The notes under the pieces are model-generated. The model searched no databases. It was not told where the DNA came from and saw only the letters and a program-made list of their open reading frames with translations. 64,000 nt of DNA from Terrimicrobium sacchariphilum (GTDB lineage: Bacteria > Verrucomicrobiota > Verrucomicrobiia > Chthoniobacterales > Terrimicrobiaceae). The translations under genes were made by a program, and so were the position numbers. Shown in pieces: positions 15,543 through 40,288 of the stretch (its first letter is position 1; each line of letters begins with the position of its first letter). The DNA is taken from assembly GCF_001613545.1 (NCBI RefSeq), contig NZ_BDCO01000002.1, forward strand, positions 2,914,001 through 2,978,000, written 5' to 3'.

Positions 15543-16018
15543 GGCGTGACCGCGAGGCGTTCCGGTGTGAGCTCGACCTGATGGAAGGCTCCGTTTTCCT
15601 TGTAGGTCTTGAGGCGGAAATGGGTCGCGGTCGACTGCACGGCCTCGACCGTGCTGAGCTTCTCAGCCACAAAGGCGGCGACGGCTCGCAGGTTGCGAGC
15701 CTCCAGGACGATGAGCAGGTCGTAACCTCCGCTCATGAGATAGCAGGTCTGCACCTCCTCAAACTTGGCGATGCGGGCTGCGATACGGTCAAAGCCGCCG
15801 TCCCGCTCAGGAGTGATCTTGACCTCAATGACCGCCGTGACCGAATCCGTGTCCCACTTGTTGTGGTTCACGATGGCCTGGTAACCAAGGATGATGCCGT
15901 CCTTTTCCAAGCGGGCGATCTCGGCCTGCACTTGTTCGACGGAAAGGTCGAGCATACGGGCGATGTCCTCACGTGGAGTGAGGGCGTTCTTTTGCAGGAT
16001 ATCGATCAATGCTTGCAT
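15539..16018 (-). CDS. Lrp/AsnC-family transcriptional regulator
   Basis: A 159-residue protein with an N-terminal AsnC-type winged helix-turn-helix (residues about 1-50, ALTPREDIARMLDLSVEQVQ then LEKDGIILGYQAIVN) and a C-terminal RAM ligand-binding domain (about 65-140, with YLMSGGYDLLIVLEARNL). Such regulators bind amino acids and control amino-acid metabolism genes. It is first in a two-gene unit with the aminotransferase, joined by an ATGA overlap. It is divergent from the histone-like gene with 68 bases between start codons. Confidence 0.9.
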   Translation of the reverse strand: MQALIDILQKNALTPREDIARMLDLSVEQVQAEIARLEKDGIILGYQAIVNHNKWDTDSVTAVIEVKITPERDGGFDRIAARIAKFEEVQTCYLMSGGYDLLIVLEARNLRAVAAFVAEKLSTVEAVQSTATHFRLKTYKENGAFHQVELTPERLAVTP

Positions 16019-16086
16019 GGAAAGGAGGCATCATTACGCCCCTAACGCTGCTTGGCAAGCGCACGACAAGAGGTTACGTTGTCGCC

Positions 16087-16443
16087 ATGGCTAAGAAACC
16101 CACGAAAAAAGCCGCCTCCAAGTCCCCCAAGAAACCCGCAGCCGCCAAAGCTGCCCCGAAGACCAAGACGGCGAAGAAAACCACCAAGCCCGCCGCTACG
16201 AAGTCCTCCACCCGCCCGCTCGGCGCCCGTGAGCAGAAGCTCGCCAACAGTGCGCTGAAGCTCGTCGACGAAGCCGCCGCGCTCCTCCGCAAGGGCATCA
16301 ACACCACGGCCGACGTGTCGGAAAAGAACCGCCTCGCCGCCAAGAAGCGCGCCCACGGCCTTCTGAACAAGGCAACCTCCTCGCTGAGCAGCATCCTCGG
16401 AAGCAGCTCCGACGCCCTGCACAAGGTCATCGGCAAAATCTAA
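16087..16443 (+). CDS. Histone H1/Hc1-like lysine-rich DNA-binding protein
   Basis: A 118-residue very basic protein. Residues 1 to about 50 are almost entirely Lys, Ala, Pro, Thr and Ser with KKPTKKAASK and AAKAAPKTKTAKK-type runs, like eukaryotic H1 tails and chlamydial Hc1. Residues about 55-118 form a helical domain (KLVDEAAALLRKGINT, LAAKKRAHGLLNKAT) that resembles the Hc1 helical part. It probably coats DNA as a nucleoid protein. The ATG at 16087 is chosen because the upstream extension in the same frame is not basic and would overlap the Lrp gene. A strong terminator follows at once. Confidence 0.75.
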   Translation: MAKKPTKKAASKSPKKPAAAKAAPKTKTAKKTTKPAATKSSTRPLGAREQKLANSALKLVDEAAALLRKGINTTADVSEKNRLAAKKRAHGLLNKATSSLSSILGSSSDALHKVIGKI

Positions 16444-35785: not shown

Positions 35786-35934
35786 TCGATTTTCTGGCCG
35801 ACATTCTCAATGCCGGAGCCGACATCGTAAACTGCATTGTCGACACTACGGCCAGCTCGTTGAGCCGGACCGCCCGGACCACTACATGCGACCAGGGCCA
35901 ACGTAGAACAAAGAAGAATAAGTCGGATGATCAT
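35770..35934 (-). CDS. Entericidin-like small lipoprotein
   Basis: Reading the minus strand from the ATG at 35934 gives a 54-residue protein with a lipoprotein signal peptide (MIIRLILLCSTLALVAC) and lipobox LVAC followed by SGPGGPAQ. The mature part is short and polar and ends in VGSGIENVGQKIERAAQ. The layout and the 'A-G-x-x-V-x ... G-x-x-I-E-x-A-A-x' ending resemble the entericidin A/B family of small outer-membrane lipoproteins. It lies 9 bases after the stop of smc on the same strand and is convergent with the AsnC-like gene. Confidence 0.65.
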   Translation of the reverse strand: MIIRLILLCSTLALVACSGPGGPAQRAGRSVDNAVYDVGSGIENVGQKIERAAQ

Positions 35935-35943
35935 AACGATTTC

Positions 35944-38900
35944 CTAGGAAATCGTTCCTGGTTTGTCATCCGGATTCTCCCGATTGGCACTTTCTCCCGC
36001 AGGATCGGCAGACAGGTCAACAAGCACCGTCTCTTCGATTTCCGGCTCGGCAGAGAGGTCGACGAGGACAGTCTCTCGCGACTGCTCTCCGACCGGCGCT
36101 GCGGACAAATCCACAAGCACGGTCTCCTCGGCCTCTGGCTCAACCGAGGCAGGTTCTGCCGACAGGTCGACCAGCACGCTTTCCTGGGGCTCTTCACCGA
36201 GCGGCTCAGCAGAAAGGTCTACCAATACGGTTTCCTCAACCACCTGCGCATCGTCAACCGGGTCGGCCGATAGATCAACCAGAACCGTCTCCTCCTCGGG
36301 GGAGTCCTTATTCTCGGATTCCGCGCCAGCAGAGAGATCGACTTGAGCCGTTTCCTCCGACTCTTCATCAGCCACGAGCACATTGCTCTGCACCGAAGCC
36401 GCGGAGTCCTCCGCTTTCCCGTCGGTCGCGGCTCCAAACTCGGCTCGTTCGCGCTCGCTCTGGAGGTCGCCGTGTTTGCCGAAGACCTCGGCCACGCTCT
36501 TGGGCTGTTCGATGCCCTTCGCCGCGCTCTCCTCCTTGGTGGTAAACTTGACGCTCACGAGCTTGCTCACGCCATGCTCCTCCATCGTCACACCATACAG
36601 CATGTCGGCGCGGCTGATCGTGCGCTTGTTGTGCGTGATGACCACGAACTGGCTCTGGCCGACGAAGCGGTCGAGGATCTTGACGAATCGGCTGATGTTT
36701 GACTCATCCAGCGGCGCATCCATCTCGTCCAGCACGCAGAACGGGCTGGGCTTCACCATGTAGATGGCGAAAAGAAGGGCCACGGCCGTCATGGTGCGTT
36801 CGCCGCCGGAAAGCAGCGAAATGCTCTGGAGTTGCTTACCGGGAGGCTTGGCGATGATCTCGATACCGCACTCGAGCGGATCGCTATCATCCATGAGCAT
36901 GAGATTCGCGCGACCACCACCAAACAGTTCGTTGAACATGAACTGGAAGTTCTCGCGGATCTTCACGAACGTCTCGGCGAAGAGTTCCTTCGTGGTGCGG
37001 TTGATCTTGGAAATGACCTCAAGCAGCTCCGTCTTGGAGTTCACGAGATCCTCGTTCTGCTTCTCCAGGAAATTCTGGCGCTGTTCGAGTTCCTCGTACT
37101 CCTGAATGGCTTCCAGGTTCACCGGACCCATCGAGTCGATACGCTCGGTCAGCTCGGCCACGAGTTCCTCGATGCGATCCCAGTTCAGCGGTTCCTGAGG
37201 CTCAGTCGGGAGCTCCGGAGATTCCTCCGATGGAGCTTCCGGGGCCGGGGCCTCCTGAGCAACCTCGCCACCATCTACCGCGGCAACATCGCCTCCGGAA
37301 TTCCGCTTCTTGATGCGCTCACGATAAGCACAGACAAGACCGTAGGCGTCGGGTTCAAAAGCCTCCAGGTCCGTCTGGTAGCGCTGGGACACATGGTTGC
37401 GCAAATTTTCCATGCGCATTTCCACCTGGGCGATACGAACCTCCAGGCGGCCACGCTGCTCCTGCAATTGCACGAGATTCTGCCGAGCGGCGCGGAGGGC
37501 GATTTCGATAGCCTCAGCCTCGCCGTAAACCTCCGAGCGAGCCGCGACGAGTGCCGCCCCCTGTGTCTCCAGCGACATCACCTCTTCCTGCCATTCCCCG
37601 ATCGAGGATTGCAGGGTGGCGCTTTCCGCCTGGAGCGAGTCAATACGAGCCTCGTAGTTGGAGATATCCTGTCGACGGGCATCGAGAAGCTCGGCGAGCT
37701 CCGCGAGACGCGCCGACATCGGGCCGCGCTGGCGGCTGAGATTTTCCTGCTGCTGGCGCTCGGTAGCCACGCGCACGCGCACCTCGTTCAACTGCTCGAC
37801 GGCGACGTTTTCGCGCTCGCGTACGATGAGGATGTTATTCTCAGCATCGGAGCGGCGCACCCGGGCCTGCTCGATGGTGGACGCGACCTCGGCAATGTTC
37901 ATCTCGAGGTTCTGCACGTGGGCGAGGCTGGCGCGGAGCGATTCGCTCAACTGTACAGTCTCGCGGGCAAAGGATTCGCGACGGGTCTCAAGGTCGCTGT
38001 ATTGACGCTCCGCCAGCTTCTTTTCGTTCTGGATGGCGGCGCTTTCCACCTGAGCACGCTGCAAGGCATCGCGCGAGGCGAGCAAGCGATCCTGCGCATC
38101 GTCGAGCGCCTGCATGGCCTCGGAACGTGTGTTGGAATGCACCTCCAGCTTTTGAATGACCAGCGTAAGGGCTTCATCGAGTTCCGCGATCTGGGCCTTG
38201 CGTACCAGCGTTGACTGTCCGGAATTTTCCCCCGAGGCACCACCTCGCACGATACCGTCACGAGTGATCAGTTCTCCCGCCAGCGTCACCACACCGAGAT
38301 ACGGATGCTGCGCCTTGATTCGAAACGCAGCTTCCAGGTTTTCAACCACGGCGATATCGGCGAGCAAAGCCATCGCAAAAGCGCGGGCATCGCCCTCCGC
38401 ATTTACGCAGGAGGAGGCCCAAGTAATCGCACCCTCCGGGAGGATGTCGCCCTTTTGCTCACTCGGGCGAATCCACTCGCTCGGGATGAGTGCAGCCTTG
38501 CCGAGCTTTTTTCCCGCGAGTGTCGCCAAGGCCGCCTCGGCGACCATGGAATCCTTGAAGATAATCGCCTGCAGCGAGGAACCCAGGGCGGCCTCGATGG
38601 CAGGAATGAAGCGCTGCTCGACCTGAATATTGTCTGCCAGCGCACCCTGAATGGCGGGACGGTAAAAATTCGGATCGTCCAGGCCGCGCAGGACGGTCTG
38701 CGTGCCCTCATCGTACCCCTCGCCCTGCTCCTGCAGCTGGCGGAGCACCTCGAGGCGGGACTCAATGCCCGTAGCCTCGCGGGAGATGGCATTCATCGCA
38801 TTCTCGGCATTCTGCCGCGCCAACTGAGCGCCTTCATAGGCAGACTGGGCCTCGGATTGCTCGATCTGGGAAAACTCGACGGTGTGAACCGAGGCCTCTT

Positions 38901-40230
38901 CGCGATGGCGGATTTCCTCCAGGCGGGCCTGAAGTTCGCCGACGGCCTGGGCGGCAGCCTCTGCCTCACCCTGCAACAGGCGGAGACGGGTTTCTCCTGC
39001 CTCACGGCGTCCTGCCGCAGCGGAAATGTCATTACGGAGCGAGCCGAGACGCCCCTCGTGCCGCGAGATCTCCGAGTTGATCTCCTGAATCTGGCGCTCG
39101 GCGACAATGCGCTCCTCGCGAGCCATCCGCACGCGATCCGTATGCTCGTTCAGCGTGGTTTCATGATCCTGGAGCGTAGCGATCATCTGCTCCAGCAGAA
39201 TGTCGGTCTGCTCAATCTGCTCCTGCTGGGCGCGGATTTTTTCCTCGGCTGCCGCGATGTCGAGGCGATGGCGATCGATCAGGGTCGACGCCTCTTCGCA
39301 CCGCTCGGCATTCGTCGAGATACGATTTTCGGCGGAAAAAACCCGATTGCGGAGATTCTGGATGCTCTCTCGCAACTCCCCCATCTGGCCGTCGAGTTCG
39401 TCAATACGAGCACGGTAGCCGGAGAGTTCTGCCTCCTGCTGTGCGATCTCGGTCTCATGAACACCGCGGGTCGACTCGCCCTGGTCGAGCTGCTGGCGGA
39501 TGGTGGTGAGTTCCTCGGAGAGTTGTCGATAGTTCTTGTGCGAAAGGTGGACGTCAAAAACCCGGAGGTCCTGCATGAAGGACTGATAACGGCGAGCCTT
39601 GGAAGCCTGCCGCTGAAGGGAGCCGATCTGGCGCCGCACCTCCTTGATGATATCCTGGACGCGGAGAAGATTGGCCTCGGTATACTCCAGTTTGCGGAGG
39701 GCCTCTTTTTTTTGGGCCTTGTACTTGGTAATACCAGCCGCCTCTTCAAAGATGGCGCGACGATCCTCCGGCCGGCTGCTCAGGATGAGATCGATCTTTC
39801 CCTGCTCCATGATGGAGTAGGCACTGCGGCCCACACCCGTATCCATGAAGAGCTGGTGAATGTCCTTGAGGCGACAGGGGGTCTTGTTGAGAAAATACTC
39901 GCTCTTCCCATCGCGATAGACGCGTCGGGTGATGCAGACTTCGTTCCAGTCCACGCCGAGTTCTTTTTCGCACTCGGCAAAGGTCAGCGACACCTCGGCC
40001 ATACCCAGCGCTTGACGGCTGTCCGTACCGCTGAAAATGACGTCGGACATTTCCCCGCCCCGGAGCGCTTTTGCAGATTGCTCACCCAGCACCCAACGCA
40101 TAGCGTCGAGGACATTCGATTTGCCACAGCCGTTCGGACCCACGACGGCGGTCACGCCGCGATGGAAATTCAAAATCGTTCGCGGCGCGAACGACTTAAA
40201 GCCGAGCATTTCGAGGGATTGAAGATACAT
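35944..40230 (-). CDS. smc: Chromosome segregation protein SMC with repeat-bearing C-terminal extension
   Basis: A 1428-residue SMC, against the usual 1150-1190. The N-terminal head has Walker A GPNGCGKSN (31-39). Long coiled coils flank a hinge at about 500-670 (VEQRFIPAIEAALGSS ... DGIVRGGASGENSG). The C-terminal head has signature LSGGERT (about 1140-1146) and Walker B FCVLDEMDAPLD. The head ends near residue 1230 and about 200 extra acidic residues follow, with seven VDLSA-type repeats. A Pro/Glu-rich insert interrupts the second coil near residue 975-1015. SMC holds and loops chromosomal DNA. The ATG at 40230 is preferred over 40263 because AGGAGG precedes it. Confidence 0.95.
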   Translation of the reverse strand: MYLQSLEMLGFKSFAPRTILNFHRGVTAVVGPNGCGKSNVLDAMRWVLGEQSAKALRGGEMSDVIFSGTDSRQALGMAEVSLTFAECEKELGVDWNEVCITRRVYRDGKSEYFLNKTPCRLKDIHQLFMDTGVGRSAYSIMEQGKIDLILSSRPEDRRAIFEEAAGITKYKAQKKEALRKLEYTEANLLRVQDIIKEVRRQIGSLQRQASKARRYQSFMQDLRVFDVHLSHKNYRQLSEELTTIRQQLDQGESTRGVHETEIAQQEAELSGYRARIDELDGQMGELRESIQNLRNRVFSAENRISTNAERCEEASTLIDRHRLDIAAAEEKIRAQQEQIEQTDILLEQMIATLQDHETTLNEHTDRVRMAREERIVAERQIQEINSEISRHEGRLGSLRNDISAAAGRREAGETRLRLLQGEAEAAAQAVGELQARLEEIRHREEASVHTVEFSQIEQSEAQSAYEGAQLARQNAENAMNAISREATGIESRLEVLRQLQEQGEGYDEGTQTVLRGLDDPNFYRPAIQGALADNIQVEQRFIPAIEAALGSSLQAIIFKDSMVAEAALATLAGKKLGKAALIPSEWIRPSEQKGDILPEGAITWASSCVNAEGDARAFAMALLADIAVVENLEAAFRIKAQHPYLGVVTLAGELITRDGIVRGGASGENSGQSTLVRKAQIAELDEALTLVIQKLEVHSNTRSEAMQALDDAQDRLLASRDALQRAQVESAAIQNEKKLAERQYSDLETRRESFARETVQLSESLRASLAHVQNLEMNIAEVASTIEQARVRRSDAENNILIVRERENVAVEQLNEVRVRVATERQQQENLSRQRGPMSARLAELAELLDARRQDISNYEARIDSLQAESATLQSSIGEWQEEVMSLETQGAALVAARSEVYGEAEAIEIALRAARQNLVQLQEQRGRLEVRIAQVEMRMENLRNHVSQRYQTDLEAFEPDAYGLVCAYRERIKKRNSGGDVAAVDGGEVAQEAPAPEAPSEESPELPTEPQEPLNWDRIEELVAELTERIDSMGPVNLEAIQEYEELEQRQNFLEKQNEDLVNSKTELLEVISKINRTTKELFAETFVKIRENFQFMFNELFGGGRANLMLMDDSDPLECGIEIIAKPPGKQLQSISLLSGGERTMTAVALLFAIYMVKPSPFCVLDEMDAPLDESNISRFVKILDRFVGQSQFVVITHNKRTISRADMLYGVTMEEHGVSKLVSVKFTTKEESAAKGIEQPKSVAEVFGKHGDLQSERERAEFGAATDGKAEDSAASVQSNVLVADEESEETAQVDLSAGAESENKDSPEEETVLVDLSADPVDDAQVVEETVLVDLSAEPLGEEPQESVLVDLSAEPASVEPEAEETVLVDLSAAPVGEQSRETVLVDLSAEPEIEETVLVDLSADPAGESANRENPDDKPGTIS
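36001..36354 (-). repeat. Seven VDLSA-centred peptide repeats at the SMC C-terminus
   Basis: Consensus ETVLVDLSA(E/D)P occurs six times, once as ESVLVDLSAEP, and a seventh more divergent copy reads ETAQVDLSAGA. Units are spaced about 13-22 residues apart by acidic, Pro/Glu/Gln-rich linkers. Codons differ between copies (for example VDLSA is GTTGACCTGTCTGCC, GTGGATTTGTCCGCA, GTAGACCTTTCTGCT and GTTGATCTATCGGCC), so the peptide is conserved while the DNA is not. Confidence 0.92.
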
Positions 40231-40233
40231 GAG

Positions 40234-40240
40234 ACCTCCT
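40234..40240 (-). promoter_or_regulatory. Ribosome-binding site deciding the smc start
   Basis: On the minus strand AGGAGGT lies 3-4 bases before the ATG at 40230. The alternative in-frame start at 40263 has no such site, so the shorter SMC starting MYLQSLEMLGFKSF is preferred. Confidence 0.8.
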
Positions 40241-40254
40241 CTAGGGTTAGGTCC

Positions 40255-40288
40255 GCCCACCAATAGGAGTGGGCAAAAACCTTGGCAA
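40255..40288 (-). promoter_or_regulatory. Candidate smc promoter with overlapping palindrome
   Basis: On the minus strand TTGCCA (40288-40283) is followed after 17 bases by TATTGG (40265-40260), a moderate sigma-70-like pair about 30 bases before the smc ATG. An inverted repeat GCCCAC-N8-GTGGGC (40255-40274) overlaps the -10 element and could be an operator or a hairpin in the leader. The call is by eye only. Confidence 0.35.

Follow-up and report, generated by a model that had tools for sequence, protein, structure and literature searches.

Why does the SMC protein of Terrimicrobium sacchariphilum run on well beyond its ATPase head, and what could a short peptide repeated along such a tail be for? 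SMC occurs almost universally, and in bacteria the proteins known to assist it are ParB, the kleisin ScpA and the kite protein ScpB. We analysed a window of 64,000 nucleotides (the whole stretch of DNA considered here) from a genome of 4,751,807 bases in three contigs, as published for strain NM-5T (PMC5532833). The features concerned are, in window coordinates:

35944 to 40263, minus strand: smc, a 1439-codon frame with TTG at 40263, a canonical SMC by Pfam
36454 to 36498, minus strand: post-head motif SVAEVFGKHGDLQSE, residues 1256-1270
36352 to 36384, minus strand: degenerate unit NVLVADEESEE ahead of the array, discernible in each of the three species of the genus
36319 to 36354, minus strand: unit 1, ETAQVDLSAGA(E)
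36256 to 36291, minus strand: unit 2, ETVLVDLSADP(V)
36199 to 36234, minus strand: unit 3, ETVLVDLSAEP(L)
36148 to 36183, minus strand: unit 4, ESVLVDLSAEP(A)
36091 to 36126, minus strand: unit 5, ETVLVDLSAAP(V)
36040 to 36075, minus strand: unit 6, ETVLVDLSAEP(E)
35998 to 36033, minus strand: unit 7, ETVLVDLSADP(A)
35947 to 35979, minus strand: conserved C-terminus ENPDDKPGTIS, which hardly differs among the three species of the genus

The protein carries head and hinge domains in one chain, with SMC_N (PF02463) matched over residues 13-1234 (E 3.6e-70) and the hinge (PF06470) over residues 536-649 (E 3e-20). The real start is probably the ATG at residue 12, about 40230, since the Pfam match begins at residue 13. 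The genome also holds one PF04079 and one PF02616 match, the ScpA/ScpB partner genes, so in head, hinge and partners this SMC resembles that of a canonical bacterial SMC-ScpAB condensin. It differs in adding, behind a widespread end motif, 169 acidic residues with tandem peptide units. The initial annotation had placed the end of the head near residue 1230 with about 200 residues beyond it, and the SMC_N match, which stops at residue 1234, agrees on both counts.

Within the tail, VDLSA occurs seven times, at residues 1308, 1329, 1348, 1365, 1384, 1401 and 1415, and the seven 12-codon units together span 35998-36354 on the minus strand. The earlier reading of the units, six copies of E[TS]VLVDLSA[DEA]P and one ETAQVDLSAGA, is borne out, and the copy-to-copy distances of 21, 19, 17, 19, 17 and 14 residues fall within the 13-22 it had given; the degenerate NVLVADEESEE unit is an addition to its seven. 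The last 169 residues have a charge of −41. In 20,000 shuffles of these residues no pentapeptide occurred more than four times, and the seven-fold peptide is beyond chance. Unit spacing in both relatives that carry the array is 17 or 19 throughout, and this mixture of 17 and 19 hints that the array grew partly as a two-unit block. On the plus strand, a 127-codon frame at 35963-36346 mirrors the repeat (SADRSTSTVSS); this frame is read as a shadow of that of SMC, in which most changes from copy to copy are silent.

The array is confined to one genus in the genomes examined. Searching 97 genomes (T. sacchariphilum included) with the last 414 residues gave matches in 88 at E 1e-30, and the array is present in 3/3 genus genomes examined, T. 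sacchariphilum having seven VD[LF]S copies, the MAG SCN18_30_10_14_R3_B_61_17 (JAFKMU010000052) seven and strain LR76 (QAYZ01000016) five; none of six tails read outside the genus from this search has it. A named collection contains 163 stretches encoding a relative, and the best 80 of these, several of them on the same contigs as loci of the 97-genome search, comprise 78 complete tails and two that run off their contig. The array is found in two of these 78 (the SCN18 MAG and LR76), and the other 76 are without it. Relatives lacking the tail would, by the initial annotation, count against it; this applies in part, at the level of other genera, where the tails read end without the array. The C-terminal query found no SMC at E 1e-30 in two genomes of 0.9 Mb (99% complete) from the order of T. 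sacchariphilum; these reduced genomes may have lost SMC or have a strongly diverged one.

The core peptide is also largely restricted to smc. A scan of 19 genomes for sites that could code for V[LF]VD[LF]SA with serine as TCN gave six, five and three in the three genomes of the genus, every one at smc, and a single site across the remaining 16, on a contig other than the one with that genome's smc. With a wider pattern on the T. sacchariphilum genome, V[LF]VD[LF] followed by WSN (codons for S, T, C, W or R), 13 sites were found, six of them in smc, against five for the pattern run backwards. Four of the seven loci outside smc were inspected and show no array; one of them encodes VLVDFST in frame, close to the N-terminus of a predicted protein of 245 residues, and two are antisense to longer frames. 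A stricter pattern returned the six smc sites and one EPVLVDF followed by TG, hence with no serine, which resembles a thioredoxin strand. Being tied to exact patterns, these searches would overlook other proteins in which the motif has diverged. In a phylum scan with the tail, two of the 387 genomes drawn gave a match, T. sacchariphilum and one other, the SCN18 MAG and LR76 apparently lying outside the genomes drawn; the second match, to a protease-like protein (29% identity, E 1e-4), was taken as chance. Among viral contigs, 19 stretches fitted a pattern and none was confirmed, the patterns being drawn from linker stretches, so that the core was hardly probed. The tail matched no Pfam family above cut-off and no solved structure up to E 10. 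The strings VLVDLSA and VDLSAEP are absent from open-licence PMC papers, and no SMC of this kind appears in the open-licence titles and abstract openings surveyed.

Is the peptide kept by selection, or is it simply young? We compared 19 units from the three species by an uncorrected Nei-Gojobori count. Between copies within a species, pS is 0.826, 0.786 and 0.818 and pN 0.105, 0.128 and 0.180, giving pN/pS of 0.13, 0.16 and 0.22 with the VD[LF]S columns included. The units were gathered by VD[LF]S, which fixes those four columns by construction, so that part of the measured conservation is built in. Excluding these columns leaves pS at 0.796, 0.760 and 0.768, pN at 0.154, 0.188 and 0.245, and ratios of 0.19, 0.25 and 0.32, which are upper estimates because pS is near saturation. 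Outside the fixed columns, 18 of the 19 units keep V(−2); L(−1), E(−4) and P(+6) are each retained by 17, and A(+4) by 15. Between species, over three pairs and with an ambiguous repeat alignment, pN/pS is 0.15, 0.26 and 0.21 for the motif, 0.54, 0.31 and 0.42 for the linker and 0.07, 0.05 and 0.07 for the SMC body. The unit columns therefore evolve faster than the body, and the gap between motif and linker is small for the pair T. sacchariphilum-LR76 (0.26 versus 0.31).

Together, these values, drawn from three species and 19 short units found in part through the columns compared, indicate that the peptide appears old and under purifying selection, with saturated synonymous sites. Tandem Repeats Finder (minimum score 30) detects no DNA array at 35900-36500, and this and the saturated pS exclude a recent DNA duplication. 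The earlier proposal that the amino acids are held by selection and not recently duplicated is supported, since the copies differ far less at nonsynonymous than at synonymous sites. The nearest DNA neighbour of each unit lies in another species in 19/19 cases, once tied with its own species; since 12 to 14 of the 18 candidate neighbours come from other species anyway, the result goes no further than to show that homogenisation is not under way among the copies of one species.

The core serine is encoded by TCN in all 19 units. AGY codons make up 33% of serine codons in the SMC body and 13% in the linkers, and the chance of 19/19 TCN, calculated by hand, is 0.67^19 or about 0.0005 on body usage and about 0.07 on linker usage. 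A single ancestral unit is likely to lie behind the array, and the serine codons do not prove it. Codon diversification beyond chance is not claimed: the observed pS was reached by random codons in 0, 7 and 8 of 1000 simulations on body usage, a clear excess, and in 25, 124 and 83 of 1000 on linker usage, a weak one.

Structure prediction yields no folded repeat. With a three-sequence alignment, AlphaFold models the tail at a mean pLDDT of 51.4, with no strand and with helices only before the repeats. A model of the C-lobe plus tail, based on 52 sequences (that of the window and 51 of 64 usable distinct relatives), has a mean pLDDT of 55, and its repeat blocks, at 39-54, are again strandless; the C-lobe itself is poorly folded there and does not fold alone. 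Both models fit an intrinsically disordered tail, weakly so because the alignments are shallow. For a beta-solenoid or other folded repeat, the spacing of 14-21 (17-19 in the relatives), the pLDDT of 51 and the lack of any strand from three sequences all point the other way, and the variable linker lengths in particular argue against a solenoid.

The most likely interpretation of the array is that of docking sites: a disordered acidic SMC tail with tandem linear motifs that form strands upon docking on a putative folded partner near the head, a proposal that we consider about equally likely to be right or wrong in this form. The look of a linear docking motif comes from the many kept copies, the variable acidic linkers and the near-absence of VLVD[LF]S elsewhere in the genome, where, among the four inspected of the seven sites outside smc, one VLVDFST stands at the start of an unrelated protein. 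The consensus is E-E-T-V-L-V-D-[LF]-S-A-[DE]-P, in five to seven copies plus one decayed. Each unit would form an extended hydrophobic strand with acid flanks and could be added as a beta-strand into a groove of the partner; presumably, the V-L-V-D-L alternation between acids provides the chemistry of such strand addition. The rims of the groove would probably be basic and belong to one folded partner. Copy number would then provide avidity, with ten to fourteen weak sites per SMC dimer beside the ATPase heads. A nucleoid or cell-cycle protein outside the complex is one candidate partner, a part of SMC-ScpAB another. The data single out none of ParB, ScpA, ScpB, FtsZ and the Lys-rich protein at 16009-16443. 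This last, a small protein encoded on the plus strand with a Lys/Ala/Pro-rich stretch, we take to resemble histone H1-type nucleoid proteins, and it is conceivable as an electrostatic partner of the acidic SMC tail.

How does such an array compare with known peptide systems? The acidic tip of SSB and the C-terminal peptide of FtsZ are also conserved short peptides on a disordered linker, present as a single copy at the extreme end, whereas the SMC tail has five to seven internal copies of a different sequence. A likeness is also found in SUMO-interacting motifs (SIMs), whose parallel form is given, in a review, as psi-psi-X-psi with adjacent acidic or phosphorylatable residues, the ubiquitin ligase RNF4 carrying four closely spaced SIMs (PMC12751080). 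As far as that text describes them, the tandem SIMs of RNF4 share with the SMC tail disorder, a repeated hydrophobic core, acidic and Ser/Thr flanks and avidity through copies. Indeed, LVDL fits psi-psi-X-psi, with E/D and S/T flanks and five to seven copies; the SIM pattern, which admits a core of psi-psi-X-psi or psi-X-psi-psi type, is loose and easily matched. SIMs are eukaryotic and, on the account of that review, loose in motif, whereas the SMC units are near-identical. Two Pfam models, SUMO-like PF11976 and ubiquitin PF00240, have no match in the T. sacchariphilum genome at E 0.1; in 14 control genomes these models gave only matches below cut-off, in one and two genomes, respectively. 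The SIM likeness is thus used as a working analogy only. A more specific proposal, that SMC itself acts as a multivalent scaffold whose ten to fourteen docking peptides per dimer recruit a dedicated partner to the heads in a SIM-like, independently evolved manner, is offered as a tentative one and is rather less likely than docking in general.

An alternative is that the tail acts in cis, the units docking on the SMC heads, neck, ScpA or ScpB while the acidic tail rivals DNA for the head surface and thereby tunes loading or ATPase cycling. The tail, at −41, emerges directly from the head, and among 56 non-overlapping, mechanically called frames in the window SMC stands alone in having 60 consecutive residues with a charge of −15 or below. 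Furthermore, ScpB is extended by acidic stretches in the same three genomes. In LR76, T. sacchariphilum and the SCN18 MAG it has 445-447 residues, of which 137-139 (charge −29 to −31) precede the core and 142 (charge −30 to −31) follow it; the corresponding stretches in two other genera of the family are 38 and 66 residues (−10, −10) and 54 and 69 residues (−9, −14), and the ScpB open frames are 449-451 codons in the genus versus 226-339 in eight other genomes. VDLSA is absent from ScpB of the three genus genomes. These long acidic stretches on both sides of the ScpB core keep a cis target among the candidates, and the SMC and ScpB acidic tails would adjoin at the heads. However, DNA mimicry needs no hydrophobic VLVDLS core, seven copies have no obvious need at one cis site, and AlphaFold shows no docking in the C-lobe plus tail model, in which the lobe itself folded poorly. 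On balance, we consider action in cis unlikely, at perhaps one chance among several.

It is more doubtful still that the VLVDLS strands pair with each other between neighbouring SMC tails and cluster the complexes as stickers with spacers. The regular, strand-prone hydrophobic cores with acidic spacers between them would suit such pairing, as would a core for which the one VLVDFST at a protein start is the only match seen in another protein of the genome. Against this, −41 per tail opposes self-association, AlphaFold predicts no strands, and the kept flanking E, T and P exceed what a generic sticker needs. About as improbable is a low-complexity acidic tail serving solubility or charge, with no specific partner, duplicated and drifting: its restriction to one genus, its variable copy number, its evolution faster than the body and its weaker codon bias (GC3 of 0.63-0.66 over 35947-36453 versus 0.78 in the body, in three species) would fit, but an 11-residue peptide recognisable in all three species despite saturated synonymous sites, with motif pN/pS below that of the linker in every species pair, would not.

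Docking on a partner near the head gains a wider context from the motif that lies between head and array. After the head, 60 of the 78 complete tails have [SPTG][VI]Axx[FLM]GK, in many cases with NLHSE or a similar sequence next, and 64 have a looser form. Both shares are inflated, as the motif was part of the query and the tails come from the best 80 of 163 loci. The widespread form of the motif is PS[VI]AE[SAT]FGK...LHSE, and by record title the carriers are Chthoniobacter-like, Spartobacteria and some other verrucomicrobial records. The distance from head to motif varies from 15 to 56 residues while the motif stays, and it therefore also looks like a docking peptide. The string VAESFGK is absent from open-licence PMC papers. 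For Chthoniobacter flavus, PSVAESFGKSGNLHSE is proposed as a bait peptide. The Terrimicrobium array would be an addition behind this older post-head motif.

Targeting of an SMC complex through a conserved pocket is also described for yeast, where condensin is directed to chromosomal sites and the pocket is apparently on the condensin side (PMC11791182). In Terrimicrobium, by contrast, it is SMC that bears the repeated peptide, and a pocket, if there is one, would belong to the partner. A genus with a kept, repeated peptide on its SMC, and with a cultured type strain, offers a direct bait for a new SMC partner. The post-head motif, moreover, raises the possibility that SMC C-termini served for peptide docking before the array arose, and more generally in Verrucomicrobiota.
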